Shown in pieces: positions 19,783-57,690 of a stretch of 64,000 nucleotides of DNA (its first letter is position 1; every line of letters begins with the position of its first letter). Source of the DNA: Norana najaformis. Lineage: Eukaryota; Annelida; Clitellata; Crassiclitellata; Hormogastridae. Position numbers and translations under genes: made by a program. The notes beneath the pieces were generated by a model, which saw only the letters and a list, made by a program, of their open reading frames with translations, did not search any database and was not told the origin of the DNA. Location of the stretch: assembly GCA_964023275.1 (NCBI GenBank), contig OZ029921.1, positions 28,193,230 through 28,257,229 of the forward strand, written 5' to 3'.

Positions 19783-19850
19783 ATAGATATTGCTATAAAC
19801 AGACAGACAGACAGACAGACAATCTGAAAAGATATTGCTATAAACTGGTT
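19620..19850. repeat. (CAGA)n with repeated GATATTGCTATAAAC unit; left edge of the duplication
   Basis: Four copies of GATATTGCTATAAAC (about 19695, 19733, 19788, 19832) alternate with CAGA tracts. Homology with the second 18-kb unit starts inside the last CAGA tract (about 19803), so the duplication breakpoint lies in this microsatellite. Confidence 0.85.
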
Positions 19851-20279
19851 GACGTTCGCGTCATCGTCTGCACCTGGAAGTCTGCGAAATGTACGCGTCA
19901 TGCATACGTAATGACTGTCGAGGGAATTGCACCGAAGCAATCGTCCGAACGTCCATCTGGAGACCACACGAATCGTCGGCGTTCTAAACTGGGAAATGCG
20001 GAAAGAACCGAAATTTGATTTCCTTCTTCTTCTTCTTCTTCTTCTCCTCTATTCTACAAACTGAACAATTCCTCGCTCAGTCGATGGACATATGGCGTGT
20101 TAACAAATGGATTACTCACTTACTTAGTTGAACGGCAAATCACGCGATCGGATATTTTGCTGACTGTTGTTGACTTTTCATTGATCTATTGTAGTCATCC
20201 TCTTTAGTGTCATCATCGGCATCAATATCATCATAATAACTGTTCTTCTTCTTCTTTTTCATTTTATTATTAGTATTAT

Positions 20280-20445
20280 TTTTATTACCCGAGGTATATA
20301 TGATCCCTCAGCAACCGAAAAATTCTCCTCAGAATGAAAAAAACATTATTATTATTGTTATTGTTACTGTTAATGTTATCATCATCATCATCGTCGTCAT
20401 CATCGTCATCATCACCACCACCACCATTATCATCATCATCACCAT

Positions 20446-20496
<51 letters not shown>

Positions 20497-20520
20497 CATC
20501 ATCAAGTTTATTTATTCCCA
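20280..20520. repeat. (ATC/ACC)n microsatellite in A1
   Basis: TCATCATC and CCACCACC blocks at 20375-20505. Shorter in the other unit (39270-39365). No coding signal. Confidence 0.9.
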
Positions 20521-23100
20521 TATCGGACGCTACGTTTACGCGCCTTTGAGGCTGTTGTTAATTGCGCGCGTTATAAAAGTCTGTTTAATAATAATTAATA
20601 ATAATAAGTTTTGTGGCCTGCGACCAGACATCAAGTCTGAGCAATGTTTACTAATGGATGGATGTTCTCAGATTAATTACATTTAACATCGTTAAGGCAG
20701 GCGCAGACAGCGCCTCTGATTAGTCTCTTGAAGAGGCGCTATACAAATTTCTGATTACAATTACACAACAATTACAAAATAAGACGAATTGCGTGAAAAA
20801 GCCTCGCCAATTGTCCAATTCGCAAATATATGCATTGCGACCTATACGAGACATACGAAGGGCGCTATATTAGCGCGGTTACGATTACGATTACGTCCCT
20901 TTATATTGACCCTTCAAAATTGTTGCAACTAATCTAAACGCACACTAATAAAATTGAACTCAAGCAGAAAGGATTCGACCAATTTTTACAATTTTATCAC
21001 TTTATTTGAAATGAAAGAAGTTGCATACACCTGTGTCAAAGGTCACAATATAGCAAATCAGCATCTAGGAACATAAAATAAGATAAAATGCAGATGACAT
21101 TGTATGTTTAAGCCACACACCAGATATAACACAATACAGCCTATACATTGTATTATCTCATGCAGAACCTAAGACCTGCTTCTTCCTCTGGCCAAGGATG
21201 CTTGAATAAACGTAAATGTAACGCATCATGTACATGTTTTTCTATAGCGACCGTATAGCCTGGACCCTGCTCATTTTCTATGAATTTATCGGGTGAGATC
21301 CTTCACCACCGCTGCCCGTTTGAATGGGCATCACGTCACTTAAGGTCCCCGTGTACGGACCATGCTAGCCCGAGATCAAAGCTCTCTTTCGTCGCGGATG
21401 GGCTATACTTCAAACAGAAATATTGAAGGGAATCTGCACAAATTATCAAAGCGAATGAAGAGGTTATGTTCCATATGACACACATATATATCTTGATGGC
21501 GAGTATAATGGAACCGAAATAAAGCTAGCGATTACGCTGTATATGTCCATGTAATGTATGGTGCTTTATATATACACGTATATATATATGTATATGATTT
21601 TATTCGCACTTGTGGGCTACAGTACTGTCACGATTTATCTCTCTGTTACTCGTCATGCAATATGATATGATAATTATATCGAAGACAAACGAACGTACGT
21701 CACGATTTACTCATCATTCATCCATGTTGCACGTCACTCACTCACACACACACACCACCACCACCACCACCACACCACACGCAAATTCCTGCAAACTGAA
21801 GTGCATACAAAGCCTTTACCGGAAAGGTATGTCAAGAAAAAATTCAGCTTATGCGTTAACAGATAAAGATGTCTGCACGCATTACACTCTAATTGATATC
21901 TGCAGCAACATTTCGTTGATGACCTAGACGTAAATCAGAAACATGTACGAAATATATATATGAAAATATTTATGTACTGTTTGACCTATTTGCCAACATT
22001 TATTTAAAACAAATTATCTAACATTATATCTATAACTATATATACTATATCTATCTAACACTAAATGTTAATCTAAAACACTAACACGAGCAACACTTAA
22101 TTTCCGACCTTCTGTGTCAAATCCATAGGATATTTCCTCTTCGTGAAACTACCCTTAGATAAAACGAGACAAACAGAGAGAGTTACTAGAACTGCAGTCA
22201 TATAGAATAAGTTACCAACTTAGTAACACAAGCCCAGTTAAACGCAGTGATCCAAGATATACTTTAGAGATCCCTGTACACAGCCACCTGAGCTTAACGG
22301 CTCAATGATGGTACTGGTTTGCGACTTAAAGTTTAAAAATACATAAAACGACGCATTGAAAGGAGGCAGATTGCCGAAGTGAGTGGATGCTTATCACCAT
22401 TACACGCCAGTTCCTGTTTATTCGAGACGGCTACAGAAGCCAAATACAGTGCCATTCAAGACTTCTGATTAGTTTAGAGTCGGTGATCTTTCTGTGCAAC
22501 TTTGCAGCAAGCAATGGCTTTGAAATTGCAACAACCTCAGACCGCTATACAAAAAAAATGTTTTTCTGAAAAATTATACATCTGTGTCAAAAGTCACAAT
22601 ATAGCAAATCAATATTTAGGGCTGGTACTAGCAACATTAAGTCTGACAGTTTTAAGTAAGCGCATGGATGCATGTATCTACGTACCTAGTACAGCGCCCC
22701 TCACAAGACTCTTAATTAATCGCCGTAGGATAACCGAATTCAAGATTTCCTGGTCACAAACGTCATATGTATGTCAGGGTCGTAAGCTGTCCATTCGGGT
22801 GGAACTAGTCGGCCCAGTGTAGTTTAACCAAATCAAAACGACGGTCTGGCTTCGGTGATTCGCAATCAAATACCTTTCGAAAACGCACGATATCAAATAC
22901 AAATCAAAGTATATTCAAAACAGTACCTGTAAATCTGAAAAGTTCTGATGAGAGCAAAGTTGTTCTTAGACAACATAGAAAATCCCCAAAAATAAACTTT
23001 TATACTGCAGTTTAACACGAAAAGCATAGTTAAAGATTCTAGCGTGTTCATGCTGCAAGCCTGCAGTACCTTCTGAGTATTTTCATATTTTATTTCTGCA
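20520..23100. other. Non-coding part of A1 with two internal repeat pairs
   Basis: No gene seen. A block of about 185 bp containing ACCTTCTGTGTCAAATCCA and AACTGCAGTCATATAGAAT occurs at 22080-22264 and again at 23392-23577. A second pair, around GTGTCAAAGGTCACAATATA, is at about 21030 and 22585. A short (ACC)n lies at 21755-21775. A SINE/LINE-type tail (GAGGCGCTATACAAATTTC then GATTACAATTAC) is at 20738-20768. All recur in the second unit. Confidence 0.6.
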
Positions 23101-23104
23101 TTTG

Positions 23105-23267
23105 TTAAGCACCACCATCTAATAACTAAGCATCAATCGATGGCGCTGAGTAACTGTGAATGAAGGACTTGCTTAAGGTCACTACACAGGTACAACATCA
23201 GGGAAGCTCAAACCCGTTCTCTCCGCGTTAAAAGTCAAGCGCTCTAACCACTAGGCTACCGTGCCCC
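23105..23267 (-). mobile_element. SINE family 1 (tRNA-derived), A1 copy
   Basis: On the minus strand it starts GGGGCACGGTAGCCTAGTGG, with an A-box-like TAGCCTAGTGGTTAGAGCG and a B-box-like GGGTTTGAGCTTCC. It ends CAGCGCCATCGATTGATGC followed by TTAGTTATTAGATGGTGG. The head resembles a tRNA and the tail recurs in other dispersed elements. It lies about 370 bp downstream of the innexin stop codon. Confidence 0.85.
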
Positions 23268-23373
23268 ACACTGTGCTCCACAAGTACGAATGCAGAAAAA
23301 TCATATTAAAAACTATTACATCACGTCGACAAACGCTTCTGGAGTTTTAAGAAAATAAAAAAGAAACAGAAAA

Positions 23374-23379
23374 TTTATT
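23374..23379 (-). terminator. Candidate polyadenylation signal for the A1 innexin
   Basis: AATAAA on the minus strand, about 265 nt past the stop codon at 23641. It is conserved in the second unit. Position only; no transcript evidence. Confidence 0.35.
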
Positions 23380-23640
23380 TAAATAAACTCATTAACACCA
23401 GCAACACCTAATTTCCGACCTTCTGTGTCAAATCCACAGGATCTTTCCTCTTCGTGAAACTACCCCTAGATAAAACGAGACAAACAGAGAGGTACTAGAA
23501 CTGCAGTCATATAGAATGAATTACCAACTTAGTAACACAAGCCGAGTTAAACGCAGTGATACGAGATATACTGCCGATGCCGAGCACGGCTTTCGGGTCA
23601 TTTAGACTCATTTTTCCTTCATTTCATCGCTGTTTTTCGT

Positions 23641-24286
23641 CTACGTTTCGCGCTCCTTATTACGCGGCGCCCCATCCCTGAGGAGATTCTCCGCGGCTTG
23701 CAGTTGGTCGCGGAATACTCCCCACAGGGAGCAAATGATTTCCGTCGTTGTTATATTGTTCGTGTTGTGTGCTATGAGTCGCAACATGAATACGCCATCT
23801 TGTTTCAGGTACTTGGTCGTAAACTCGGGAACGAGGTCTCGTTGGCTGCTTTCGTTCTTCAGTTCTCCGCCGAGTCTCAAGTGGTTGGTCACGAACGAGA
23901 TTCGATCTTGACGGAGGACGGCTCGAAGGCACCAAATGAAGAAGCTCAAACAGCTGAAGACCGTCACAAAGATCATCCAGTACCAGAGGAAGACGTAGAT
24001 CTTCTCGTTGTAGAGGTTGATCGGTAGGACGCACTGGATGGTGTAGGGGTGGACGTTGGCCATGTCCTGGCCGCGGATCTTGAAGTCGCAGAGGGTGACT
24101 CGAGGGAAGGCTACGTAGGCGTCTTCTGTCCAGTCCCGATTCAGAGCCATCTGGCGGACGATGTCGACGCCGAAGGTCGTGTACTTGGTCGACAGGACGA
24201 CATTGAGCAGAAACAGCTGACCAATCACGTTGCCGATGTAGCAGATCTTCGAGAAGAGGAACAAAATCAAGAGGTAATTCCCCAGT
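23641..24286 (-). CDS. Innexin gene, A1 copy, exon 2 (TM3 to C-terminus)
   Basis: Acceptor TTTATCTTGGCAG|A at 24286 completes the split Arg codon of exon 1 (AG|A), so the protein continues ...CGKR-LGNYLL. It carries TM3 (about residues 199-228, with SKICYIGNVIGQLFLLN), extracellular loop 2 with two cysteines (C263, C282) 18 residues apart, TM4 (about 290-312) and a cytoplasmic tail. Together with exon 1 the product is 411 residues, a normal innexin length. The tail ends RNKERET at a TAG (23641-23643); the sister gene has GAG there and reads eleven residues further. A 15-bp segment of the sister's tail (around PADPG) is also absent. The frame is otherwise intact, so function is plausible. Confidence 0.93.
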
Positions 24287-26470
24287 CTGCCAAGATAAAG
24301 CATAATATATACACACACCAATAGTCATTTCACGATAATTAACCTCTGCCTCGCACAGCATCTGCTTAATAGATACTGGCAAATATCTCTTATGAGAAAA
24401 ATCCCCTGTTTACAAGCGCGTTAGTCACAAGCCATGGCAGAAAATGCCAAAAAATTGTCCCGATTTTGATAATTTTACCATCAGCACACACCTTTGCCTC
24501 AACAACGTGATTTTTTCTCATATTATTCGCCAGATAGCGGCGCCATAACGAGCCCAGTTCGACAATGCGAAAAGCTCATAAGGAATTTCGGAACTTGAAA
24601 ACAGTCGTCTAAGTCTCGATGGCTAAAAATCGGCAGTCAAATTTTGCGCGACATATGGTACAATCAACTTCCTTACTTGGCCCCCTCTTTCAAAACGTCT
24701 GAATCCTCCAATGGCCCCTCTGTCAAAACCCTGCTGACGCCCTTGCCTGTATTCATCTGTTTCAACTCGCTCATCCACCGTTCGTAGCCTGGCCTCTGGT
24801 ATTCCTCACCTGTCCGTTTCCGACCGGGGTTCTTCAGCGGATTACAACTTTCGACTCTGATTTCACTCGAAGCGACCATCGATTGATCCTCTATGTGCAT
24901 TATGATAATGGCGCTATATAAATCACTAGCTCATATCAACGTATAGGCTTATTCAAAGGTTGATGTGGTAAGAGTCGATCTTTATGTCCACTTTATTGTA
25001 TTTCTGCTTGATTTAGTATAACTTTTTAATTTGTACGAAAAAATTCGGTTAATTTGTTGAATAAAAATAGCTCGATTAACTCCCTGTGTTCCATTTAGGG
25101 CGCTGGCGACATCACTGCGTTTTAAAGCAGAGAATAAATAAAGCAATAAACCACACATAAAGCCCCGTAGCGGTTGACGCTGGATATACAAGAATGCTAA
25201 TTAATTCAACAACAACATTTCTTGTTACTTAGCAGGCTAAAATAGATTTACAGCTTCTCTTACGAGCACCATTTCAAATCGAGTGTAGTCTTTACTAAAG
25301 TTTGGCTGACTTATTAGTCCCATCGTCTGTTAATAGCAGTATTTGCAATTACTTAACAGTTATTGTGACTTACAGACAAAGAGTTGGCGTCAACTTTTAT
25401 GGTGACCAGAGAAAACGAACTCAGTGCATTAGTGAATTAAAAAGCAGTAAATTTATTGATCATCAACAGTTTCGAAAAATATACAGGTAATCAGGCTTAC
25501 ATAAATTCGTGTCAAAGGAAAACTCTGGATGGAACCATATTAGTCCTCTGCACAGAACTGCCCAATTACAGCGTAATATTGTACCGGTGATAGCATCAGT
25601 AGACGCTTTCAGTTTATATCAGACAATTTAATTCTGCGAACGTTCTAGCCACAGTGGTGTCTGCGGTTATCAGACGATACTTTTATCAATGTAGCTACAC
25701 AGGCCTATGCATACGCTGCAATGTGCCCAAAGCCTTTAAGATTTTGATGACCTGCTGTGAATTTCAAGATATCTCTACTTAACAACAACGTATGAGTCTA
25801 AATATGCGCAAACAAGATTTCCTTTCATATTTATCAGCTAAAAATTCTTGACATGATGTGTCATTACATCGAAACATGCAACTACTACAACTACATCAGA
25901 AATCATTTTGAAGAGTTAAGGTAAAGGTAGGGTAATCCACTTTGTTTAAATGACGCTACAGAAACTTATCAGAAGTGAGATCCAGAGGGTGAAGGATCCG
26001 CTGAAGCGCAAACACGACTGCGGCAATCCAACGGCGGGGCATCCGTTTACCACCCTAACTTCTTGTGTTGGTACTCATGGCTCGCTAGGGTCAATGCTCG
26101 CAGAGTGATTACATATTCTTTCATCTTTTCTTTGGCTTGGCTTTGCGTCTGTGTGTGACCCCCACCACGTTGTCACTTCTCTTATTATATGAGCAATGTT
26201 TGCTAACTAATGAACTTTTTGTTGTTAATGACTTTGCCATTATTTTGGTTAGCACAGACAGCACCTCGGAACAGTTTCACTTAAAAGGCGCCATACAAAC
26301 CTGCGATTACCAATAAAATTTTATTCAAGTTGATGAATCCCTTCCTTAAGACTTACCTTTTGCGATTACAAATACAATTATTCAAGTTGATGAATCCCTT
26401 CCTTAAGACTTACCTTTTGCGATTACAAATACAATAATTCAAGTTGATGAATCCCTTCCTTAAGACTTAC
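24287..26470 (-). other. Intron of the A1 innexin
   Basis: A phase-2 GT-AG intron of about 2.2 kb. It holds a dispersed-repeat tail (CGACCATCGATTGATCC at 24875 followed by GGCGCTATATAAATCAC), a 401-bp segment (25347-25747) missing from the sister intron, a LINE/SINE-type tail at 26250-26310, and the triplicated 57-bp unit next to the donor (26322-26478). No nested gene seen. Confidence 0.8.
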
Positions 26471-26478
26471 CTTTTGCC
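26322..26478. repeat. 57-bp tandem triplication spanning the innexin splice donor (A1 only)
   Basis: TTCAAGTTGATGAATCCC followed by TTCCTTAAGACTTACCTTTTG occurs three times with a 57-bp period; ACTTACC starts at 26351, 26408 and 26465. On the minus strand each unit carries AAAAG|GTAAGT. The first (26470) is the true exon 1 donor; the others (26413, 26356) are decoys in the intron. The sister gene has one unit. Confidence 0.92.
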
Positions 26479-27060
26479 GCACAGACGGCACAGCGTGACC
26501 GACAGGAGGCTCTTGAGGTCACACGAACACCTGTTGGACTTCCGGCTGCTGATGAAGCGAACCATCTGACTCGTAAGCATCGTCATCGTTCGATCTCTAG
26601 TCTCGACCAAGTTCGTCTTCGAGAACGTGTGCGCCGAGAACGTGTGCGCCGCCGACAAGATGTTATCAGCATCGATGCCCGCCTTACTGTTCAGTCCCCT
26701 CCAGATCATTGTTGGACCGTAGAAGAGGATCGCCTGTCCGAGCAGAATGAACGGAATCCACTGGTAATAGGTGATCATCTGTCGGTCCTCATCTTCCTTC
26801 GGGACCTCGCTGCTCCACGGCAGGTAGTAGGTGTTCTTCACCCAGCAGTAGTTCGTCGCGAACTTTGAGTGGCCGCTCTCGAAGTGGTTAGGCGTCCAGC
26901 AGGTGATGGGGTCCCGGACGTACTGGTTCAGTCCGACGAGAATGGCGAATACGACTAGAAGGATGACCGTGTAGCGGGAACTCAGACGGTCCGCGAAGTC
27001 GTCGTCATTTCCGGCGCGACTCGACGAAGCACTGAAGACGGTCTCGATGAGCTTATCCAT
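26471..27060 (-). CDS. Innexin gene, A1 copy, exon 1 (N-terminus, TM1, loop 1, TM2, cytoplasmic loop)
   Basis: Innexins form gap-junction channels and hemichannels in invertebrate cell membranes. ATG at 27060 has an in-frame TGA five codons upstream. The exon encodes TM1 (about 29-46), extracellular loop 1 with C54 and C72, the innexin-type YYQW element opening TM2 (YYQWIPF, 98-104; TM2 to about 120) and a basic cytoplasmic loop ending CRLCGKR. The donor AAAAG|GTAAGT (26471/26470) is phase 2 and splices to 24286. Compared with the sister gene there is a five-residue in-frame duplication (AHTFS, from a 15-bp tandem repeat). The innexin family is not in doubt; the specific paralogue is not identified. 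Confidence 0.95.
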
Positions 27061-27266
27061 CGTTGGAGGACTGGATCACTACATAAAATCCTGAAGCAAT
27101 ATCGAAAGGTGTACTGTACGTAGTAGCTGGAAACAAACAAGAAACAATATGCATATATATGTAAGTTTGAAGAGTTACCGGCTTCAGTTTTAGCCTCGGC
27201 ATATGACAGCAGGTGTCCGGTCTTTTCTCTTGCCGCCCGATCTTCTCCCTGACGATCAGTGCATGT

Positions 27267-27737
27267 ATTCGTTTTATAACCGAATTCGATAGGATGGCAT
27301 TAGACAATAAATTCCAGAGCCTTGGGCCAGCCACCCTGAATTTTGAAGGGCCAAAGATTGTTACGGTCCGAGGCACAGCAATTGTGAAAGTCTCGGCTGA
27401 TGTAGCACAATATTTGTTGCTCTGGCACAATATTTGTTGTTCTAAGACATGAACGATGAGCAAAGAAATGCCGGCTGATTTATATGCAGCACTTGTGACT
27501 TTACTATTCGTTTTATAACTGAATTCGATAGGATGGCAATAGACAATAAATTCCAGAGCCTTGGGCCAGCCACCCTGAATTTTGAAGGGCCAAAGATTGT
27601 TACGGTCCGAGGCACAGCAATTGTGAAAGTCTCGGCTGATGTAGCACAATATTTGTTGCTCTGGCACAATATTTGTTGTTCTAAGACATGAACGGTGAGC
27701 AAAGAAATGCCGGCCGATTTATATGCAGCACTTGTGA
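27267..27737. repeat. Tandem duplication, two units of about 239 bp (A1 only)
   Basis: ATTCGTTTTATAACCGAATT at 27267 recurs as ATTCGTTTTATAACTGAATT at 27506; both units run through CCAGAGCCTTGGGCCAGCCA and end at GCAGCACTTGTGA. The second unit has a single copy (about 46111-46322). The reverse-strand reading (FGPSKFRVAGPRLWNLL) resembles the C-terminal RLWN block of a LINE reverse transcriptase, so this may be retroelement-derived. Confidence 0.85.
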
Positions 27738-27914
27738 GACAGAATTTTCTGATCCAATAGCAACAAATGCATTGCATGCAAAACAGAAATTATAGATAGG
27801 TAGACAGAGTTTACTTCGGTTGTCAATATTTCGGATGATGAACTGGGATTCGAAACCAAGGGACTCTGGTGAATAACCGTCGCCTTAGCAACGAACGACG
27901 ACGTATCTTTCTGG

Positions 27915-28196
27915 CAGGGCCGTTTTAAATTCGTCGTAGGCCCTAGGCACTCTCGCATTTGTAGGCTCCAACTACCAACTCTGCATTAGAGCTAAACATA
28001 TTCACATTATTTCTTGACGTCTATCTTCCCTTGCACTACTTTCAATTGAAAACGATTTAGTGCGGAAAATGACATTTGAGGACATTATATGTGCCTTTGC
28101 TGAGGCAAAAGCCGCAAAGTTAACATAATGTAGCACAGCTTAACTTAAAAACTGTTTCAGCACAAACTTTAAGGTTATTAAATTTGTATTTCCTTG
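27915..28196. mobile_element. Truncated hAT-type MITE, A1 copy (left part only)
   Basis: Begins CAGGGCCGTTTTAAATTCGT after CTTTCTGG, as in the complete element at 46499-46903, but homology stops at about 28196 where the deletion in A1 begins. The right terminal repeat and right target duplication are missing. Confidence 0.8.
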
Positions 28197-28769
28197 AATG
28201 AATATGTATAGGCTCATATGCTTGAGCCTCTGGCCCGGTGCACAGCGGAAACGTAGCTTCTTATGCGTAGGTCATCTTAGGCAATACAAGGACTAAGCCT
28301 TAACACACACCTGAGGTATAGGCTACGCGCTTCAGTAACTTCGGTCTAACAGTGTTTGAGAAATTTCCGTACGTATCTATGGATACGTACGGAGCAGAAA
28401 AGGTAGGCGTTTCTAAGCAGTGAACAATGTCTACAGTATGCGTTAGGTACACAGTTGAGCATATATTTACGCAATAAGTGAGTAATACAATAGGCAGAAT
28501 ACCGTCTTCAGTTCTAAGTCGTGAGTTTCCAGGTAGGCCTATATCACGACACTTCTTTGCCTTGTGTGCCAACGTAGCATTGCCTAAATGCCGAAATCTC
28601 GAGTCTTATAAACTACGAATTGAACAGCAAACGGATCTATATATATACACATTTGTATATAGAACTGTGTACATAGGCCATAGTAACGCCTACGCGTTAT
28701 ATAAAACCAGGCCTGTATTTGCATGACTGCATAGATTCATATAGTCCTATATATAGGTAGGCCTCCAAC

Positions 28770-29370
28770 CACCATATCCCTCCTATCCTGAAATCACTCC
28801 ACTGGCTGAAAACTCCAAAACGCATTCATTTCAAAGTTCTTCCTCTAACCTATAACTCTGTGCAGTCCTCCCATCCTACTTATCTTCGCAGACTTTTTAC
28901 CATCCAATTCCCTCACGCTACCCGCTCATCCTCTTGCTTCACTGTTGCACGTCCCTTTGTCGCTACTCGTCTCAACTTCTCTAACCGATCGAATCCGATC
29001 TAATCCCCATTTCACAACCCACGTAACAGATGCTTTGACCCCTTCTCTGTCTGCTCCTCTGCCAACTGGACTTTGTTCTTCACTTGCTTTCTTTGGGAAA
29101 ACCCCTCTGACTTGACGTCTTGCATGTTTATATAGGCTTACCAGTACACTGCTACTCGACTCTGGAACGATCATCTTTCTGCATTTTGCAAATTCCTCGT
29201 TCCTCTTTCCCGTCCGTCGTTCACGCACCACCATCATTTGTCTCAAGCCCCTCTATCTATTACTACTAAGGTTTTCCTTTAAAAACTAAAATCACAACTT
29301 TTCAAGAAATCTTACCCTGATCCATTCAATCCGCCACCTTCCCATTTCACAACCCACCGTAACAGCTGCA

Positions 29371-29442
<72 letters not shown>

Positions 29443-29590
29443 CTCTGCCAACTGGACTTGGTTCTTAACTTGTTATCTTTGGAAAAACTCCTATGACTTG
29501 ACGCACGCTCTTAAACAAGCTGGTGCTCTGCGTTTAGCTTTAAAGTCGCGCTTTAGAAATTTTCGATATTACGATTACGATTACATATAT
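28770..29590 (+). mobile_element. Decayed L2/CR1-like LINE, 3' end, A1 copy
   Basis: In broken plus-strand frames it reads LKTPKRIHFKVLPLTYNS, PTYLRRLFTIQFPHATRSSS, ATRLWNDHLSAFCKF and FKKSYP, the usual order of the reverse-transcriptase C-terminus of L2/CR1 LINEs. A long (TC)n tract (29378-29439) interrupts the 3' part. The 3' UTR at 29512-29590 has AAGCTGG..., GCGCTTTAGAAAT and ends in GATTAC repeats. Stops and shifts make it inactive. Confidence 0.75.
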
Positions 29591-29599
29591 CCTAATATA

Positions 29600-30595: not shown

Positions 30596-30599
30596 CACC

Positions 30600-30775
30600 C
30601 ACAGTAGCTGCCACGCTGTCTGTCTGCCTGCATTTTGGATCTTGACTTGTGACCGAACTCTTTTGCCTATCGATTTTGTTTTGACTGAGCGCCTGTAAAT
30701 AAGCTGGTCCCCGTGACGTGGCTTTCGTTGGACGCTGTAGAAATCTGGGAACTACGATTACGATACGATTATTAA
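30600..30775 (+). mobile_element. SINE family 2, A1 copy
   Basis: CTGTCTGTCTGCCTG, GGATCTTGACTTGTGACCG, TATCGATTTTGTTTTGACTG, GCGCCTGTAAATAAGCTGGT, then GGACGCTGTAGAAATCTGGG and a GATTACGA tail. The sister copy is at about 49910-50065. Confidence 0.75.
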
Positions 30776-32174: not shown

Positions 32175-32177
32175 AAT

Positions 32178-33780: not shown

Positions 33781-33783
33781 GTG

Positions 33784-33826
<43 letters not shown>

Positions 33827-41960: not shown

Positions 41961-41964
41961 TTTG

Positions 41965-42969: not shown

Positions 42970-43004
42970 GCCGATGCCGAGCACGGCTTTCGGGTCATTT
43001 AGAC

Positions 43005-46911: not shown

Positions 46912-47240
46912 TTTCTAATCAAAGTTAGCCTCGCTTCGAACAGCCTGCTTTTCTTCCAGTCAAAGCTGACCATTCTATCTACCTGTTATCTCTTTCTAAT
47001 CAGACGACATTAATTCGACCTACCTGTTCTGTCTTACAATCAAAATTGACCACAACTCGACCTAATTGTTCCGTCTTAAAATCATAGATGACCTCAATTC
47101 GATCTACATATTCTATCTTCTAATCAGATCTGACCTCAACCTTCCTGCTTTTTTCTTCTGATCAGACTTGAAATCAGTTCGACCTACCTGTTCTGTCTTA
47201 CAATCAAAGATGACTTCCTTTCGACCTGAGTATATTGGTT
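46912..47240. repeat. Degenerate minisatellite with about 45-60 bp units (A2 only)
   Basis: Units like TCGACCTACCTGTTCTGTCT followed by TACAATCAAAGATGACC recur about six times with drift. The whole stretch is missing from A1 through the deletion spanning 46779-47537. Confidence 0.7.
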
Positions 47241-48099
47241 ACATAATTCAGAATGTTAACAACCGATTGACAAACACTTTGTGCGAGTTAAAGATCTTCC
47301 TAAACCGACAGGTCAGGTAGGTCTATAAATTTCCATTAATTACAATTCAGTGGAATGTCAAGCCAGGTTAGGCAGACTCGTTCAAAATGACTGCCGCAGG
47401 CTGAGCAGGGTACACAGCAAGTAGACTAATAGCTTCGGAAAGGGATAGGCAGCCTAACTGTGCAACTTCTCCCCACTCGCGCTTTAGACCTATAGGTCCC
47501 CTTGTTATAGCCTACAGGCAAATGCCTTTTAATTCCCAATGAATATGTATAGGCTCATATGCTTGAGCCTCTGGCCCGGTGCACAGCTCCTTATACGTAG
47601 GTCCTCTTAGGCAATACAATGTCTAGGCCTTAGCACACACCTGAGGTATAGGCTACGCGCTTCAGTAACTTCGGTCTAACAGTGTTTGAGAAATTTGCGT
47701 ACGTATCTATGGATACGTACGGAGCAGAAATGGTAGGCGTTTCTAAGCAGTGAACAATGTCTACAGTATGCGTTAGGTACACAGTTGAGCATATATTTAC
47801 GCAATAAGTGAGTAATACAATAGGCAGAATACAGTCTTCAGTTCTAAGTCGTGAGTTTCCAGGTATATCACGACATTTCTTTGCCTTGTGTGTCAAAGTA
47901 GCATTGCCTAAATGCCGACATCTTGAGTCTTATAAACTACGAATTGAACAGCAAACGGGTCTATATATATATATATACATATTTGTATATAGAACTCTGT
48001 ACATAGGCCATAGTTAAGCCTACGCGTTATATAAAACCAGGCCTGTATTTGCATGACTGCATAGATTCATATGGTCCTATATATATAGGTAGGCCTCCA

Positions 48100-48920
48100 A
48101 CCACCATATCCCTCCTATCCTGAAATCACTCCACTGGCTGAAGACTCCAAAACGCATTCATTTCAAAGTTCTTTCCCTAACCTATAACTCTGTGCAATCC
48201 TCCCATCCTACTTATCTTCGCAGACTTTTTACCATCCAATTCCCTCACGCTACCCGCTCATCCTCTTACTTCACTGTTGCACGTCCCTTTGTCACTACTC
48301 GTCTCAACTTCTCTAACCGATCGAATCCGATCTAATCCCCATTTCACAACCAACGTAACAGATGCTTTGACCCCTTCTCTGTCTGCTCCTCTGCCAACTG
48401 GACTTTGTTCTTCACTTGCTATCTTTGGGAAAACCCCTCTGACTTGACGTCTTGCATGTTTATATAGGCTTACCAGTACACTGCTACTCGACTCTGGAAC
48501 GATCATCTTTCTGCATTTTGCAAATTCCTCGTTCCTCTTTCCCGTCCGTCGTTCACGCACCACCATCATTTGTCTCAAGCCCCTCTATCTATTACTCCTG
48601 AGGTTTTCCTTTAAAAACTAGAATCACAACTTTTCAAGAAATCTTACCCTGATCCATCCAATCCCCCACCTTCCCATTTCACAACCCACCGTAACAGCTG
48701 CACTGTCTCTCTGTCTCTGTATCTGTCTCTGTCTCTGTCTCTCTCTCTGTCTGTCTGATACTCTGCCAACTGGACTTTGTTCTTCGCTTGTTATCTTTGG
48801 AAAAACCCCTATGACTTGACGCAGCGCTCTTAAATAAGCTGGTGCTCTGCGTTTAGCTTCAAAGTCGCGCTTTAGAAATTTTCGATATTACGATTACGAT
48901 TACATATATCCTAATATATG
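48100..48920 (+). mobile_element. Decayed L2/CR1-like LINE, 3' end, A2 copy
   Basis: Counterpart of 28770-29590 with the same blocks and 3' UTR (AAATAAGCTGGTGCTCTGCG ... GATTACGATTAC). The pyrimidine tract is a shorter (CTGTCT)n-like stretch (48704-48755) instead of the long (TC)n of A1. Confidence 0.75.
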
Positions 48921-48924
48921 CACT

Positions 48925-49905
48925 TTTACATAATTTCTATCTTAGGCCTTTAGTTATATATAGAAACATATATAACTAAAGGCCTGTATATGATATTTGT
49001 GTGTTTGTGTTTGTGTGAGGCGTTACAGACGCTAAGGCCGGCCAAATCATTCATAATTATCTCGAAGCAAATTCCATAAAAATACACATGAGTAGTTTGG
49101 CCATATGATGTAACTTTTCGTAGCCTGCAGCTAAAATGTTTAGCCTTTACAGCATCGTACCATAATTACCCACGGCTTAGATCGGCTTTTTATGTGTGTC
49201 TGACTGTCCTTATCCCAGGAGGAACTCATAAAGAAGATGATGGTCGGGAATAATTAGTCGCGAAGGTGCCATGCTTTGAGCCATTGCAATCTTTTCATAC
49301 ATTATTCAGAACACTATTTATTGACTCACCAACAACAACAGAAAAATACACGGTAGCACTGTAAGTTGGACAGCTGATGCTGGTGCTCAAAAGGTGTCAT
49401 CCAAAAGAATGACAAGTCCCGCTACAAACCGTATGATCTTATTACTATAATACATTCTAGACAGCCTTAACAATATAACTATGTCAACGTGGATGCTTGA
49501 AATTTGAATAGCTTTCTTCAACAAAGCAAACTCATTTAAGGTCTGCCTGTAAGGGAGTGAAGAGCAAACAGGGCTTGTGTAAAATTTGGTCCATTCCAAC
49601 TAACGCGACAACGGGACAGTTTTGCACATAGGCAGCTTGTAAAGATAAGTGAAAGACCCGGCTTAAACGAGAGATAAGAGGTCTACCAATCGACCGCTGT
49701 AGGCTATATAAACAGTATTAAGCAAGCTTATACGGTGCTGGGGTATACCTCTATACCTCAGGCGCATTATTGATTTACATAATAATAAATAATAACATTA
49801 TATAAAATAAAATAATAGTATAGTAGTGAAACTAGTAGTCGGGGTGGTGGTGGTATTGGTAGCAGTAGCAGTAGTAGTCGCATCCCAAACATCACCCACA
49901 GTAGC
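48925..49905. other. No gene recognised (A2)
   Basis: Same content as 29600-30595, including the hairpin AGGCCTTTAGTTATATATAG (48953 onward). No exon signals. Confidence 0.35.
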
Positions 49906-49909
49906 TGCC

Positions 49910-50065
49910 ACGCTGTCTGTCTGCCTGCATTTTGGATCTTGACCTGTGACCGAACTCTTTTGCCTATCGATTTTGTTTTGACTGAGCGCCTGTGAATAAG
50001 CTGGTCCCCGTGACGTGGCTTTCGTTGGACGCTGTAGAAATCTGGGAACTGCGATTACGATTATT
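49910..50065 (+). mobile_element. SINE family 2, A2 copy
   Basis: Same modules as 30600-30775, with the tail GGACGCTGTAGAAATCTGGG and GATTACGATT. Confidence 0.75.
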
Positions 50066-51318
50066 AATTTTATTACTATGGATATTACTAATATCTCCCT
50101 TAAAGGTCGACTCGTCTTTCATCGTGGTGAAGGAAGAATGGTTGCTGTGGCTATGCCACCAGTAATGTAATTATTAACAGTCTGAAGTACCAGCAAGGCG
50201 TTACGTGAGGTGGACAGTCTCAACAGAACCCCGAAAATGGTTGGTAAATGTAAACAGCAACCTCGCCTTTTCGATATCGCAGCCAGTTCCAGTTCTGTAT
50301 AAAGAGGAGATCGGACGAATGGGTGCCGATACGTCGCCCGAAAAGTGGAGACGACAGATATCCATGGCATATGACTGTCACAAAAACATAACCCCGGATC
50401 GGACGTTGCCCCGGTCAACAAACCTCTTCTTAATCCGTTAAAACCTTGATATCGTTTCTTCTATGTTAAATATTTACATTCATGCATAACACTTGCATAC
50501 TCCGTTGATAGTTATTCTTTTCATGGCCAGTTCACGTCGTTTCAATTAATTTCTTGATTTGGACAGCGCACTGCAGACAAAGGTGTAAAGTTGTAAAGTT
50601 GTGCAGGTGTAAAGGGAAATGATTACAATAAGCAGTGGACTCCTTTATTTTATTAGTATACGGGCTTTCAGCCATTGGACAGTAATGATGATTACTAATT
50701 ATGTGACTTATTAGTTAATGTTCCATATTCGAAGTGTTTGCACTTCTGAAGCGTGACGGAGCTCAAATATTCCAGCATAAATTATCCAACAGCGGACGCT
50801 TTATACCTGAATTGTTTTGATGTAGGTAAGTGCCTGATCCAGATGTTTGCATAGGGTGGTCTGAGGGAGGAGTACAGACAAAAGGCAGCGAAAAGACCCA
50901 AGCTGAAATCATTTAATTATCTCTAGCAAACAAATTTTAAGTGTTTGTGAATTTCAGCATAAGTATTTTAAAAGAGAATTATAAACTGAAAACATAATAT
51001 ATTCCGAGTGCATCTTGATCTATGCGTTTCAGAATATTTTAGTGGATATCATAAATAATGGAGTTTGGTCTGGTTCTCGGTTCGTCACGAACGCACGGAA
51101 ACCGTCTTTGAGTAGCGCAATATTCTTTGTAAATATTCGTTCATAAATATTCGTTCATAGATATTCGTTTACGCGTGGGTCTGTTTTGGCAGAAACTTGT
51201 AGTTTGTTGAGTTATTCGAGTTGCGTGCGTGAAACGGCTTCCTGTCTATCTTGGTCAGTGTTTAAATGATTGTAATTTGCAGTTGCCAAAGGACAGGATA
51301 TTACTGTAGTTGTGCAAA

Positions 51319-51465
51319 ATGCGGATGATAGAAGTATTAGCAGTAGCGTTTGCCACCTTCACTGTCATTTTCTTCCTTCTCCTATCCCTGTCACTTTGTT
51401 CATTTTATTTTTTATTGCATGGTCCTGCTAAATGGATCACGATTTTGGAATGCGATTTTGTTTAG
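51319..51465 (+). CDS. Candidate small hydrophobic ORF, 48 residues, A2 copy
   Basis: Identical at every base to 32028-32174. It sits within the roughly 578-bp block that shows no difference between units. Either a host micropeptide, part of a mobile element, or chance. Confidence 0.25.
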   Translation: MRMIEVLAVAFATFTVIFFLLLSLSLCSFYFLLHGPAKWITILECDFV

Positions 51466-52015
51466 AATCGACCATCGATTGATGGTGTCTCGTGTCTTAA
51501 CATAACGATGCTATAGAAGTTACCAGATTAAATTTTGGCTTATGGTCTGCAGATACTTTCGCCTGATTAGTGATTTCCGTTGCAAGCTTCAGAATGTCTG
51601 GATATAAGCCACAGTGACAGAGCTGTATACAGTTTGCGTGTAGGGTCTACGAGAGTTCTAGACATATGTTGCGGCGTCTGCTATTAGAAGATGGCACTTT
51701 CAAGAGTGCTTGTTTGGGAAGAGGCCATCGCCATGCCAGTCACAACAGGTGTTCGTTCAGTCCATTACACCTGTAGGGTGCTCTCGGTTGCCCGTTGACT
51801 CACGAGCATTTATCTAAGTAGGCAATTAGGCCTACATCTATCACGACGCCGCATGCTTAGTCTAGTATGACCTTAGTACAGGGGTATTAGAGTAGGTCTA
51901 AATGCCCCATCTCTGGAGTCATTCAAGTCACGACTTAAGACCCACTTTTTAAAAATATCATGTACTGCGCCCTTTGTCGGCCTTGTCTGTGCTGCGCCCC
52001 TATATAAATTGTTTT

Positions 52016-52106
52016 ATCATTATTATAATTATTATTGTTAATATTATTATTATTACTATTACTATTATTATTATTACTATTATTATTTCTATTATTAGGC
52101 ATGTTA

Positions 52107-52137
<31 letters not shown>

Positions 52138-52156
52138 CATTATTATTATTATTAAC
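52016..52156. repeat. (TTA)n microsatellite in A2
   Basis: Interrupted ATT/ACT repeats matching 32750-32897. Confidence 0.9.
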
Positions 52157-53037
52157 GAGGTCAGGTTATAGTCTATGGTCGAATGGCATCGACTTTAAAA
52201 TGCAATATAAAAAGATGTAGTGCCTATTGTAATTTTATCCAGTGTAGTAGAGAATATTGTGTGCTCCCAAAGTTGTATCGTTGACCAGAAGCTAAGTCAA
52301 GAGAACTAGTTAAAAGACAAAGGCAGACATTTGGCCAGATAAGCTTTTAATGGCGAAGCGTAGATGAAGGGTGTATATTCCCCCCACCAGTTGTAACTGA
52401 GACAAGTACACCAATGCATCTGTCGCCTTGCTTGAAGAGGTGCGCCTGTTTCCCGCTTTGCCACCGATTGAAGAACAAGTCATAAGTTAAGAAAACATGT
52501 CGCAAGAAATGTTGTCCAAGTTCCTTGCAGTGGGCACGCGAATGGAACCGTCCGGAGCCCATCATGTGAATTCGACGTAAGGCCCAGGGTGAGGAAAATC
52601 CGAACACGGAGGGGTGCCTAAATTGGGTCAGTAGGCTATTCGGCCTGGATTTACAAAGCAAATACATTACTTTGCAAGATTCAGTTATCTGTACAGCACA
52701 AATTCTGTACTCAACGAAGCTTACTCGTTTGGAGGGATTGAACAGATATTTGGGGCCTGTAACTCCTTAGCCCAAAGCTGGGATTGCAACATATTTTCCG
52801 TGAATAGCCAGTACATGTAGTAGTAGGCCTAGGCCCCTCAGTTTCAGCGCCAATTGTCGATCAACGATTGAACACAGTTCACATATCTATGCAAGTAGCG
52901 TAGGCCTACTAGCCGAGCTCCATATTACATAAGTCGTATACCTGCCATCTTCATATCAACAACATAAAGCGGGTACTAATTGGTCAGCTATAGGCCGACC
53001 AAAATTTTGAATTATAAATACAACATGAGCTAGAAAT

Positions 53038-53042
53038 GTGAC

Positions 53043-53110
<68 letters not shown>

Positions 53111-53190
53111 ATAGCATGCCCCTCTTTGAAGCGTTGCCGTTTCCACAATTCTTCGCCAATCGTCACGGTCCTGAGCTCGCCTCCAGGCTG
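53038..53190 (-). mobile_element. LINE 3' remnant ending in (GAT)n, A2 copy
   Basis: Counterpart of 33781-33920 with about 23 GAT units instead of about 15. The coding remnant is the same. Confidence 0.5.
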
Positions 53191-53769
53191 TATGCAGCCC
53201 AAAGTTCAGCGACCGAAGCAGCCCAAAGTTCAGCGGCCGAAGAACTGTGAAGAAGTACCTGATCGAACCATTTAGTTTTGGGTATTGATTTCAGGGTATC
53301 GAGGAAGACGATCTCGCTGGATACATGACAGCACGATGTATCGTTATGGATGACCACACTTGCAAGAATTTTATACATCATATGCAGGTGATTACCCGAA
53401 TCGCCGTTAGAGGTACACGTTGATCGGTGCCCAGCTGACTGGTGATAGAACAGATAATGATAGGTCGATGCTATTCGTTGGTGATAGGCATTTACATGGT
53501 TTCAACGATAGGATGATATTGAGGTAGTTGGTGGATGCTGTTGGTAGGAAGATACTCCGATAGGTGAACATAGCGATAGATGGATGCTATGATGGGCTAA
53601 AAGAGTTTCAGTCGTAGGGTGATCGCTGAGTTTGGCTCAGAGGGAGAAAGATGTGGTGATGGCACGATATGGTGTTTTAAAGAAAGGTTGGCTGGAGGAC
53701 TGGGTATTTAGGCTAATGCGCCGTTGCTGATGAAGGAAGCATCGCTGAGCGTGCAAGACGATCAAATAC

Positions 53770-54089
53770 TTAGATGCCATCTTTACGGCTGTACCTAACA
53801 GTCGGTAGACTCCGATAGAACTGTTCGTCGAGGGTGACCTGTGACCTGAGCATCGTCCTGTTTCGATGCCTTTCCTCGAGGCAGTCCAGTCCTAGATAGT
53901 CGTAGGTCAGGTTGAACTTGTTGGCGAAGAGTTCCGGTCGGGAGGCGAGCCAGGGAGCGTCTCGGACCCCGTAGACGCAGATGCCCCTGACGACCCTCCC
54001 GTTGCACTCTAGCTGATCGTACATCCCAACCCAGTTCTTAACACGAACCACTGGATGGACGGAATACTTCTCGGCAACATCCAGAGGAC
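53770..54089 (-). CDS. GT14 N-acetylglucosaminyltransferase-like gene, exon 4 (C-terminus)
   Basis: Acceptor TTATTTTTCAAG|GT at 54089 enters in phase 1 and reads GPLDVAEKYSVHPVVRVKNW, then CNGRVVRGICVYGVRDAPWL, FANKFNLTYDYLGLDCLEE and a basic end, stopping at TAA (53770-53772). The RxICVYGxxDxPWL and ANKF...LDCLEE blocks are standard for the C-terminal part of core-2-type enzymes. The 8 bp after the acceptor (GTCCTCTG on the coding strand) are those missing in the A1 copy. Confidence 0.92.
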
Positions 54090-54354
54090 CTTGAAAAATA
54101 ACAACGCATACGTCAGTTACAAGAGCGCCAGTAATAATTGTAATTGTAATCGCAAATTTATATAGCTCAACTTCAAGGGAAACTCTAGTGCGGCTGTCCG
54201 ACCCCAAAGTGTGAACCACGATCGTTTTTCAAGCTGAAAAGAGGTAGAGAGACGAAAAAGCTCATGTCTCAAGTTGCAAGGCAACTTATCCGAAACAGAA
54301 GGGCCGATCACAGAGAATATTTAATACTGGACTGTAGAAGTTCGGGAGCGCCTC

Positions 54355-54430
54355 TGATTGATTGATTGGTTGATTGACTGATTGATTGAGTGATTGATTG
54401 ATTGATTGTTTGGTTGATTGATTGATTGAC
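54355..54430. repeat. (GATT)n microsatellite in A2
   Basis: Matches 35060-35140 with small unit differences; lies in intron 3 of the GT14 gene. Confidence 0.85.
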
Positions 54431-54897
54431 TCTTCTATTGATCCCAAATTCAACATATCAGCTTACACATAAAACGTACAGTTTGCCAGGATACAAAAGG
54501 CAAACCCAGAAGGGACCAGGGGTTCCGCTTACATAGGGTCGCCTCTTATCGTCTTATCGAAATGTAAACAAAGCCTATGATGAGTATATCTTGAAGTGGC
54601 GCTATATACATTGTAAATTAAAATTACAGTTACAAGTTCGGACCAAACTGACCATGTGTACTGCGAACAAGCTGCCATAATTAAGATTAGTGCATCAGTA
54701 TCAATATTAGGCCAATTAATCAGTGTTATCAATAACAACGGAACATTCAAAAGCATCAGTACTAATAACAATACCTGCAATAACGTAAATGCCACCAATA
54801 TCAACAAAGCCAAAGACAATAAAAACTACACCATCAAAAACACCATTAAGATTAATGTCGTCAATAGTAGCAGAAACAATGCTGTTGCAGCTGTGCA

Positions 54898-54972
54898 AGA
54901 GAGACAGACAGACAGACAGAGACAGAGACAGAGACAGGCAGACAGACAGATATTATATATATATACATATAC

Positions 54973-55028
<56 letters not shown>

Positions 55029-55035
55029 GAGAGAG
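54898..55035. repeat. (CAGA)n, (TA)n and (GA)n microsatellites in A2
   Basis: Same order as 35690-35818, with a longer GA tract. Lies in intron 3 of the GT14 gene, about 115 bp from the exon 3 donor. Confidence 0.9.
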
Positions 55036-55150
55036 AAGAGCGATAGGTTTTTTCACATGATCATAAGGTAAGATAAAATCTATAACATAACATAGCATGG
55101 GTTTAAAGTGGTTCTAGGACTACGCATCGCAGTATCAACCTCTGACTGAC

Positions 55151-55440
55151 CTTCGTATCCCCCGGGGGCGTTGAGATGTGGGTTGTAGTTGAGGGTGTTC
55201 CAGTAGTGTTCCGAGGGGTGGCCAGTATCCCAACACCATTCGAGGTACTTGCGTCCGTGCTCACTCTCGATAATGTACTCGGTCAGACGTCGAGAGAAGA
55301 GGGCGTGCAGCTCACCCTTGAAGAAGGTCAGAGGGACGGGGTAGGGGGCCTTGGGCTCCAGGGTGTTGTAGAAGATCGTCTGCTGGTAGGTCTTGCTCCA
55401 TCGATGCGTCCAACGATAGTTCACCCGATCCATCTCCATT
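55151..55440 (-). CDS. GT14 N-acetylglucosaminyltransferase-like gene, exon 3
   Basis: Acceptor CTTGCTGTAG|A at 55440 completes the Arg codon (AG|A); donor GATACGAAG|GTCAGT (55151/55150) is phase 1. It encodes MEMDRVNYRW, a PVPLTFFKGELHALFSRRL segment (the acceptor-site/GSAY-like region of the family), and GHPSEHYWNTL, where the Glu (about residue 407) matches the catalytic-base position of core-2 enzymes, then NAPGGYEG. Confidence 0.93.
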
Positions 55441-55554
55441 CTACAGCAAGACGATCATTACTATATGGCTGTCTAGTTGTATCACACGTTAATGTGCCCA
55501 AACATACGTACGTAGGTGTATGAGTGCGTCGGTACTTGCAATCATGCTAACATG

Positions 55555-55740
55555 CATACATACATACATCATACATACATCCATCATACATACATACATA
55601 CATACACACATACATACATACATATATATAAACATCATACATAGGTACATACATACATTCATGCATACATACATACATACATACATTCATGCATACATAC
55701 ATACATGTATACATGCATACATACATACATATATAGATTG
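55555..55740. repeat. (CATA)n microsatellite in intron 2 of the A2 GT14 gene
   Basis: About half the length of the counterpart at 36325-36692. Confidence 0.92.
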
Positions 55741-55755
55741 TAATAAATAGTTTAC

Positions 55756-56351
55756 CTGGCGGTCGATCCTGCGATGTCGTTTGAGCCGTTGAAGATCTTT
55801 GCTATCCGAACCAGTTCAAGATTAGTCCTGAGTGGAAACTCTTGTCCAGTCAGGTTGATGAAGTACTTGTACTTGCCTCGGAAGTACTTGAGCAGGTCTG
55901 CCATGCAGTTGATTTCCGGTAGAATGACGGTGATGTCACCCCACTTGACCTTCGCAAGGTGTGTCGACACCCAGACGTTATCAAAGCACCGGGCAATGGA
56001 AAGGACAGTCTGGTGCAACAGCAAAGGAGACTTGGTATCAACGTGGATGCAGTAGAGGTTCTGAGGCTGGTAGACGGCCCTCAACAGTCTCTCGATTTGC
56101 TCCACGTCCCGGTAGACGGCAAGACTAAACGCCAGAGGAAATTCCTCTTCCTCGCGTGAAAGTGGTACCTGGATGTAGCCTCGTTCCTTCTTGAAGCGCT
56201 CGCAGTCCTTGGTTAGGTCGAGGTACTGCTCCTCGTAGATCGGGACCTTGGGCCGGGTCTTGATGATGTCGTCAGCTCGGTCCAGCTCTCTTGCGTCTCC
56301 GCCCAGTAGAGCAGCACAGTTAACGAGGTCTGTGTATTGGATCTTCGGAAC
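55756..56351 (-). CDS. GT14 N-acetylglucosaminyltransferase-like gene, exon 2
   Basis: Acceptor AACTCCTGTAG|G (56351), phase 0; an in-frame TAG in the acceptor itself shows the exon starts there. Donor ACCGCCAG|GTAAAC (55756/55755), phase 2. It encodes VPKVQYTDLVNCAALLGGDA, CERFKKERGYIQVPLSREEE, FPLAFSLAV, ERLLRAVYQPQNLYCIHVD and LLKYFRGKYKYFINLTGQEF, the donor-binding half of the glycosyltransferase fold. Stem cysteines (VNC, KDC) are in the usual places. Confidence 0.94.
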
Positions 56352-56439
56352 CTACAGGAGTTTAGGATACACAGCATTGCTTGTCGAAGTATGAGGACTG
56401 ACATCTGTATTGCAGAGGGTGTTTGCCCTTAGAGACAGG

Positions 56440-56602
56440 TGGGGCACGGTAGCCGATTAGATAGAGCGCTCGGCTTGTTACAAGGAGGCTACGGTTCGAG
56501 CCTCCTCTAAGACGGTTGCTGTGGAGGGACCTCGAGCAAGTCCCTTACTCACAATTGCTCAGCGCCATCGATTGATGCTTAGTCATTCGAAAGTGGCGCT
56601 TA
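56440..56602 (+). mobile_element. SINE family 1 at the right edge of A2
   Basis: Counterpart of 37396-37558: A-box-like GATTAGATAGAGCG, B box GGTTCGAGCC, tail CGCCATCGATTGATGCTTAG ... AAAGTGGCGCTTA. Unit homology ends at its 3' end. Confidence 0.88.
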
Positions 56603-56608
56603 ATAAAA

Positions 56609-57690
56609 GCAGAATTAATAATAGTAAAATACTGGGCTCATGGCTGGCCATCAAATGTTCCGGTGGCACAGTGCAGGCTCACTATGGGCCTACTGGAAGT
56701 GACTATCTGGGTGGATAAGGATAATTTCCTGATAAAGAAATTATGCTTCTGGTGGATGTTGATCTTGAAAAGTTCGATTTCATTTACCGTGAGAATAGTA
56801 CTGGTATTATTAAAAACCGTTAAATGATAATCAGTTAGTTTTCAGTAAACCTTATTAAATGCAAGATAGCTGGATGCATCCAGTTCCATTAAAAATGAAT
56901 TTAAAAAATAATAGCGTAGGCCTAACGTTTCGTGCTTTATTGACCATTCCTTGTCATTGGGCCTATACGCCTTCAAACTAATCATTGCTACTTGTCTTCC
57001 CTGTTCTGGCCTTCATTCTAAGAATTTCGAAGTTCCATGAGAAAATCCCTTTATCTCTCCAGAAACTACTTCTATAGCTCTACTTCAAATGCCCAAATAG
57101 CTGTCACATGCCATCATATTGTAGGGCCTATGTTAAATGCATGTTCAAATTCATATTCAAATTGGCCCTCTGGCGAAGAACAGCTAACTACGATATGGTA
57201 TCAGCAAGTTGTCGAAGTTCTATGAACAATTTCTTTTATTTCCTTGAATAACTTCTGTAGCGCTACTTCATACACTGTTGCAAACGCCACATTGTTTGTC
57301 ATACGCTCTCGAACAGCCTCTCTGCTTCCACTGCGCCTTCGCTATATGTGACCCTAGTTTTGGCAGAATTCATTTTAGACATTTTGAAGTTTAATGAGGT
57401 AATCTTTTTATCTTACGAATTTCTTCTACAGCGTAAAAACATTTTGTGTAAATGTAAGTCTTCGAAATTTCTCAGCGCCATATAAAAACCGTGTAGGGAG
57501 ATGAGCTTAATTACCGGCGCTATATCAAAACAAGTAAGAGCCAGGTTGTTTGATGAGTTTTGGTGCCAGGTCAAAGTTTGGGTGGTCAAGCGGTTAAGAC
57601 AGCACGGTGCTACGGTGGAAATAGTCGTTGATGGTGGTCATGGAATGGAGCAGGAGCGGAAGAAGGATAGGATAGCTTGAAGAGTTTGGT
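56609..57690 (-). repeat. Segment B, inverted copy
   Basis: Reverse complement of 37560-38640. With that copy it forms inverted arms of about 1.08 kb around A2. Here the LINE portion continues outward into a longer element (to about 58440), so this orientation is probably original. Confidence 0.92.

Follow-up and report, generated by a model that had tools for sequence, protein, structure and literature searches.

The stretch of Norana najaformis DNA analysed here (contig OZ029921.1 of assembly GCA_964023275.1, forward-strand positions 28,193,230 to 28,257,229; 64,000 nucleotides in all, hereafter the window) holds two direct copies of a 17.8-kb unit, A1 and A2, with two inverted and apparently templated pieces lying in the joint between them. 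Read along the locus, the order is A1, an inverted copy of the right flank (B), an inverted piece from inside the unit, A2 and the flank itself, which begins with the source of B (B′). The order, orientation and source of each piece are directly visible, and from them we infer one event, the order of its switches and the copying rather than ligation of B. The duplication and its joint were probably made together by a single replication-based event of serial template switching. The event left an innexin gene complete in two copies and cut one copy of a GT14 glycosyltransferase gene from its first exon. The locus also offers a caution: a stretch found inverted between tandem copies is not necessarily the product of a later inversion.

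Order and source of the pieces

The pieces of the rearrangement, in window positions, are as follows.

19809 to 37559, plus strand: A1, the first unit, with a complete innexin gene and glycosyltransferase exons 2 to 4 (self-BLAST and collinear alignment)
31744 to 31801, plus strand: source of templated insert 2, inside A1
37391 to 37559, plus strand: short interspersed nuclear element (SINE) that closes A1 on the right with its 3′ end; the A2 equivalent is 56435 to 56603
37561 to 38640, plus strand: B, templated insert 1, an inverted copy of 56612 to 57697
37561 to 37816, plus strand: portion of B, about 256 bp, that is the 3′ end of a long interspersed nuclear element (LINE)
38648 to 38705, plus strand: templated insert 2, an inverted copy of 31744 to 31801, 55 of 58 bases identical
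38706 to 38735, plus strand: tetranucleotide tract of ATAC/CAGA type where A2 restarts, its template not assignable
38720 to 56603, plus strand: A2, the second unit (self-BLAST and collinear alignment)
56604 to 56611, plus strand: undoubled 8 bp (the "NML" interval) between the exit point at the end of A and the end of the inverted run
56612 to 57697, plus strand: B′, source of insert 1, running on directly into the old right flank

Self-comparison of the window by BLAST confirms the two direct units of about 18 kb described in the initial annotation, with A1 and A2 matching in several pieces. In a collinear alignment, extended 11 and 17 bases beyond the right edges, 539 of 16,495 aligned sites are substituted (3.3%) and 63 gaps occur, the longest of 757 bp; the non-coding portion differs at 482 of 14,089 sites (3.4%). 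A tandem duplication of 239 bp (27266-27737, 98% identity) is listed in A1 and not in A2, and is therefore probably younger than the duplication of the unit.

The edges of the unit lie where they had been placed, at the 3′ end of a SINE on the right and in a CAGA microsatellite on the left. A relative of the edge SINE inside A (23105-23274, minus strand, 77% identical) aligns to the identical last base at the edge of A. From its look, the edge SINE may be tRNA-derived. Comparison with Rfam gave no family at the gathering score, and ARAGORN returned zero tRNA. No long homology was found between the two ends of the unit, a SINE end being set against a CAGA tract. Tandem duplication by non-allelic homologous recombination was rejected on this ground, and also on account of the inserted pieces that fill the joint.

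B is the reverse complement of B′ (37561-38640 against 57697-56612 in the self-BLAST), and the same segment does follow A1 and A2 in opposite orientations, as had been reported. The two differ at 56 of 1,070 sites (5.2%) with 10 gaps, and the divergence is concentrated in the first 200 columns of B (17 of 196 sites). Since 17% of overlapping windows of the same size in A are at least as diverged, B need not differ in age from A, though its divergence is rather high. Where two copies stand in tandem, the flanks on the outside predate the duplication, and the joint between the copies is what it created. B′ would be the old right flank because exon 1 of the GT14 gene, which lies beyond it, is predicted to splice across B′ into A2; B′ adjoins that old flank, therefore only B is new, and B is read as an extra inverted flank copy in the novel A1/A2 joint. 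The description of B as inverted between the copies holds for its orientation, however what is inverted is an additional, templated copy of the flank within the novel joint and not the original segment. A simple in-place inversion of a duplicated unit made of A and B was rejected, the sequence after B being unlike the sequence after B′.

Genome searches covered the 608-Mb assembly (17 contigs) with a word-based method that passes over very common words. With B as the query, 40 matches were obtained from the 40 of 2,865 candidates scored, namely B, B′ and 38 other loci, and every match at the other loci falls inside the first 272 bp of B at 75-82% identity. The remaining 824 bp gave 57 matches from the 40 of 92 candidates scored; only B and B′ match at full length, and 49 of the 55 partial matches lie within positions 333-460, a short dispersed repeat. 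That repeat (38156-38273 and the matching part of B′) recurs at many places genome-wide with about 71-85% identity, more than once at several of the loci. Across 265 LINE columns, B and B′ agree in 24 states against the majority seen in six other LINE copies, while 14 changes are private to B (two being SINE-side bases), 11 are private to B′ and two are ambiguous. The common LINE states, together with the 824 bp present at full length only there, suggest that B is, as far as sequence can tell, a copy of one particular old and diverged LINE locus with its 824-bp neighbourhood, and that both have aged since.

The LINE that had been noted in B is real, however it accounts for only about 256 of 1,080 bp, and the rest is not LINE. 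An inversion mediated by this element, as was initially proposed, is not supported by so short a LINE tail beside 824 bp of other sequence. For the same reason B was rejected as a whole LINE or other mobile element: its LINE similarity ends near base 256, the 824 bp of B outside the LINE rule out an insert of LINE alone, and those 824 bp have no other full-length match among the 40 of 92 candidates scored. Inspection of the joints by eye revealed no LINE 3′ tail or target-site duplication, no formal test having been run. Elsewhere in the window, 1-579 and 57893-58427 are copies of one LINE, with 71% identity between them.

A 5′-truncated LINE insertion that carried its 3′ flank by read-through (3′ transduction) would explain why B begins inside the LINE and runs in the sense of the LINE past the 3′ end of the element. 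Truncation is common among LINE copies, and one of six fetched copies starts at the point equivalent to 57697, with two more starting within 27 bp of it; the other five loci run unbroken across that point, by 81-376 bp in three cases and by 24-27 bp in two. However, the parent copy is old, judging by its 75-82% identity to other copies, the insert begins exactly where the SINE stops and has a 58-bp piece of A at its far end, and no intact source LINE with the same 3′ flank appears among the scored matches to the 824 bp. Transduction is accordingly regarded as highly improbable.

Beyond B, positions 38648-38705 form an inverted copy of 31744-31801 within A, a feature that the initial annotation missed. 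A1 and A2 are identical to each other across this source (51035-51092 in A2), and a genome search with the 151-bp region around it returned three matches from three candidates, which are A1, A2 and the joint. The source being found elsewhere only in A1 and A2, the 58-bp piece is best described as a templated insertion. Its three differences are all transitions and are absent from both A copies; three differences in 58 bp have a probability of 0.32 at a joint divergence of 3.4% and of 0.003 at 0.5%. They would be improbable in a recent joint and likely in one about as old as the divergence of A1 from A2, which favours an old joint.

These diverged pieces also bear on whether the layout could be an assembly artefact, with two haplotypes laid in tandem and perhaps misjoined at the ATAC/CAGA tract near 38.7 kb. 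Divergence of 3.3% with large insertions and deletions lies within the allelic range of some marine invertebrates, and on such general grounds the differences between A1 and A2 could be allelic; moreover, the sole join into A2 falls in a microsatellite. However, the window and 100 kb on each side (264 kb in total) contain zero N's and thus zero gaps. Among self-matches of at least 400 bp and at least 85% identity in these 264 kb, identity above 91% is confined to the A1/A2 and B/B′ pieces; the next best match, 780 bp at 90.3%, lies about 83-93 kb to the right, so that near-identical pairs are not general here. Nor would an assembler be expected to produce templated pieces that have diverged, with 14 private changes in B, 11 in B′ and three in the 58-bp piece. 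An artefact is considered unlikely, and the locus is treated as real as long as reads do not contradict it. About 50-100 kb to the right of the window lie seven self-matches, direct or inverted, of 434-1,669 bp (85-90.3% identity, below that of A1/A2).

The innexin and glycosyltransferase genes

Each unit carries an innexin gene and exons of a glycosyltransferase gene, all read from the minus strand.

23641 to 27060, minus strand: innexin copy 1, a 411-aa open model with exons at about 27060-26470 and 24286-23641, both matching PF00876
43005 to 45900, minus strand: innexin copy 2, a 422-aa open model matching PF00876 positions 1-331 of 333 (E 4.3e-99)
34487 to 37307, minus strand: GT14 copy 1, broken, without exon 1 and with an exon 4 that is 8 bp shorter at its start and therefore out of frame
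53770 to 59076, minus strand: the complete gene of GT14 type (core-2 N-acetylglucosaminyltransferase-like), with exon 1 (58684-59076) lying in the right flank and exons 2 to 4 in A2

The two exons of innexin copy 1 cover PF00876 positions 1-156 and 155-331. Both copies have open reading frames and are separated by 19 synonymous and 20 nonsynonymous differences, a ratio of nonsynonymous to synonymous rates (dN/dS) of 0.29; in copy 1 a stretch of 15 bp is repeated in frame, there is a gap of five codons and the stop comes earlier. A 57-bp unit that includes the donor splice site of innexin exon 1 is present about three times in A1 (26302-26477), and the matching 116 bp are missing from A2.

The GT14 gene that ends in A2 is predicted to encode a core-2-like glycosyltransferase. 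Its 532-aa model, in which intron 1 spans B′, matches PF02485 positions 1-212 of 250 (E 1.3e-37) and residues 19-385 of the 391-residue chain of the C2GnT1 structure 3otk (E 4.8e-70), while exon 4 alone and exon 1 alone matched no family. Exon 1 occurs once in the genome (one match from one candidate). Splicing of this exon across B′ to the exons in A2 is what we infer from the gene model, since its donor, CAG/GTTCTA, presumably matches the usual splice consensus only weakly. Copy 1 is most likely a pseudogene, because exon 1 is absent and exon 4 is frameshifted. The genome-wide search gave no second DNA-level match to exon 1, and a substitute was sought among eight minus-strand frames with hydrophobic starts between 37310 and 43000, none of which was judged convincing.

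Outside the duplicated units, a single open frame of 447 aa (8128-9471, minus strand) matches the rhodopsin-type G protein-coupled receptor family PF00001.

Mechanism of the duplication and its rivals

Replication-based template switching had been one of the mechanisms put forward initially, and the 58-bp fragment strengthens the case for it. It is favoured because two separate inverted, templated pieces sit in the novel joint and only there. Copying would have run rightward through A and broken off at the 3′ end of the SINE, at the equivalent of 56603. It would then have switched to the opposite strand about 1.09 kb ahead, at 57697, and proceeded leftward to give the inverted B, stopping within 8 bp of the break. 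A jump to 31801, still leftward, would have copied 58 bp. With another change of strand, copying would have entered the CAGA tract where A begins on the left, after which A would have been copied a second time and its second copy rejoined to the old right flank. At junction 1, the SINE end CTTAA meets the LINE-family sequence CTCAA, a short and imperfect homology, and the AAGACTG that follows in the family is kept in B and altered in B′.

Several observations weigh against this account. Only 8 bp separate the end of the inverted run (56612) from the exit point at 56603, a proximity that under free template switching is a coincidence. Junction 2 consists of seven bases without an assigned template and shows no clear microhomology, and junction 3 lies inside the ATAC/CAGA microsatellite, where the template cannot be named and the junction cannot be placed more finely. 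Permissive scoring extends the 58-bp match to 97 bp at 78% identity, into the start of A2, an extension taken here as chance. Lastly, GT14 exons 2 to 4 appear constrained, with 12 synonymous and four nonsynonymous differences between the copies (dN/dS 0.095). Had copy 1 been neutral throughout, 15-25 nonsynonymous differences would be expected (P 7e-4 to 4e-7 for the four seen), and neutrality can have applied to no more than 37-61% of its branch. Under the model, copy 1 never had exon 1, and the constraint suggests that part of the divergence may predate the event; some of the difference between A1 and A2 may thus be allelic and older. Alternatively, copy 1 may have kept a function for a while, perhaps through a shared exon 1, or exons 3 and 4 may have been homogenised. 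Gene conversion was rejected as the cause of the low nonsynonymous change, the synonymous difference in exon 2 (0.0675) not being reduced; it is lower in exon 3 (0.034) and exon 4 (0.017), where conversion could have acted.

The 8-bp proximity needs no special explanation if there was a break at this point, or if B is a flipped fragment. The near coincidence of exit and return points suggests the first of these, a single double-strand break at the SINE/LINE boundary that set both limits, the stop of A and the run-off of the inverted flank 8 bp away. This refinement is put forward tentatively, as a possibility that we do not hold to be the likelier case. If true, the joint would preserve, to the base, the trace of a template-switch event with three switches whose extent was limited by a break. 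That event would have doubled a complete innexin gene in the germ line of an animal, and its product would have persisted until all the pieces had diverged by 3-5%.

The second possibility corresponds to breakage and end joining between sister chromatids, in which B was released between the SINE end and 57697, religated in flipped orientation and joined to a sister broken in the CAGA tract, the 58-bp fragment being added by polymerase theta or a similar enzyme. Under this scenario an inverted B running from the exit point to 57697 with just 8 bp lost needs no coincidence, and the seven unassigned bases at junction 2 fit. It requires, however, three breaks on two sisters and a 58-bp insert templated about 25 kb away, and 58 bp is long for end-joining synthesis, which together make it an unlikely origin.

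The constraint on GT14 exons 2 to 4 would find an explanation before the duplication if the locus arose in two steps, with B (1.1 kb) inverted first, in an allele or in one copy, followed by unequal exchange between inverted and standard forms with insertion of the 58 bp. The somewhat larger divergence of B (5.2%, compared with 3.4% in non-coding A) is in keeping with such a history, and a standing inversion haplotype has been proposed for some cases in a human PLP1 cohort (PMC6902434). The end of the duplication would, however, have to hit the inversion breakpoint by chance within a few bases, the sequence after B is unlike that from 57698 onward, contrary to a simple inversion, and the three sites at which the 58-bp piece differs from A1 and A2 favour an old joint. 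Prior inversion is therefore judged unlikely, and serial template switching is retained as the preferred mechanism.

The inverted B arms had also been expected to act as a continuing hot spot for inversion, which now seems doubtful, the longest identical run between them being 70 bp. Deletion or further duplication by direct exchange may be the likelier instability, because the direct A copies share five identical runs of at least 200 bp, the longest reaching 588 bp.

Comparison with known rearrangements

The closest counterpart is the duplication-normal-inversion/duplication class (DUP-NML-INV/DUP) described from human PLP1 cases, in which one switch joins the distal ends, and another the proximal ends, of two duplicated segments (PMC6902434). 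The distal segment can lie inverted between direct proximal copies, according to the text description of Figure S8a in that report, and small templated insertions are also seen at joints in the cohort (PMC6902434). Likewise, in the window A and B′ are duplicated and 56604-56611 is undoubled; 56603 joins 57697, and 56612 joins 19809 by way of the 58 bp and the microsatellite tract. The undoubled interval is 8 bp here compared with 3,084-7,863 kb in the PLP1 cases for which it is given, and the ends that were joined showed no long inverted repeat, in contrast to those cases with their oppositely oriented LINEs or Alus (PMC6902434). The present example further differs in its small pieces (17.8 kb and 1.1 kb), in its innexin-bearing animal host and in being an old event. 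It resembles the duplication-inverted triplication-duplication class (DUP-TRP/INV-DUP) in placing an inverted segment within duplicated sequence, however the locus contains no triplicated sequence, and a flanking inverted repeat was not observed.

Complex insertions in human patients, attributed to fork stalling and template switching or microhomology-mediated break-induced replication (FoSTeS/MMBIR), are described with templated insertions of 6 bp to more than 13 kb and microhomology at the joints (PMC5120786). The window similarly shows insertions templated nearby at a joint, the 58-bp piece and B, the latter at full length among the 40 of 92 candidates scored. Homology at the joints is here short and imperfect at junction 1, whereas junction 2 has seven unassigned bases and junction 3 lies in a microsatellite, and the setting is unlike that of the complex chromosomal insertions in patients which that report describes (PMC5120786). 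In an invertebrate, Drosophila copy-number variants are reported with filler of up to about 60 bp and with more than 20 added bases in 10 of 157 complex ends (PMC4056370). They are comparable in their non-homologous mechanism and added breakpoint bases, whereas here 1.08 kb and 58 bp are traceable to templates.

The serial template-switch cases found in the literature are mostly human disease alleles and tumours. The N. najaformis locus is an old, apparently inherited invertebrate case that can be read to the base, with its templates sought genome-wide, and we regard it as a well-resolved complex duplication that is old and belongs to a known kind, although its host is unusual.

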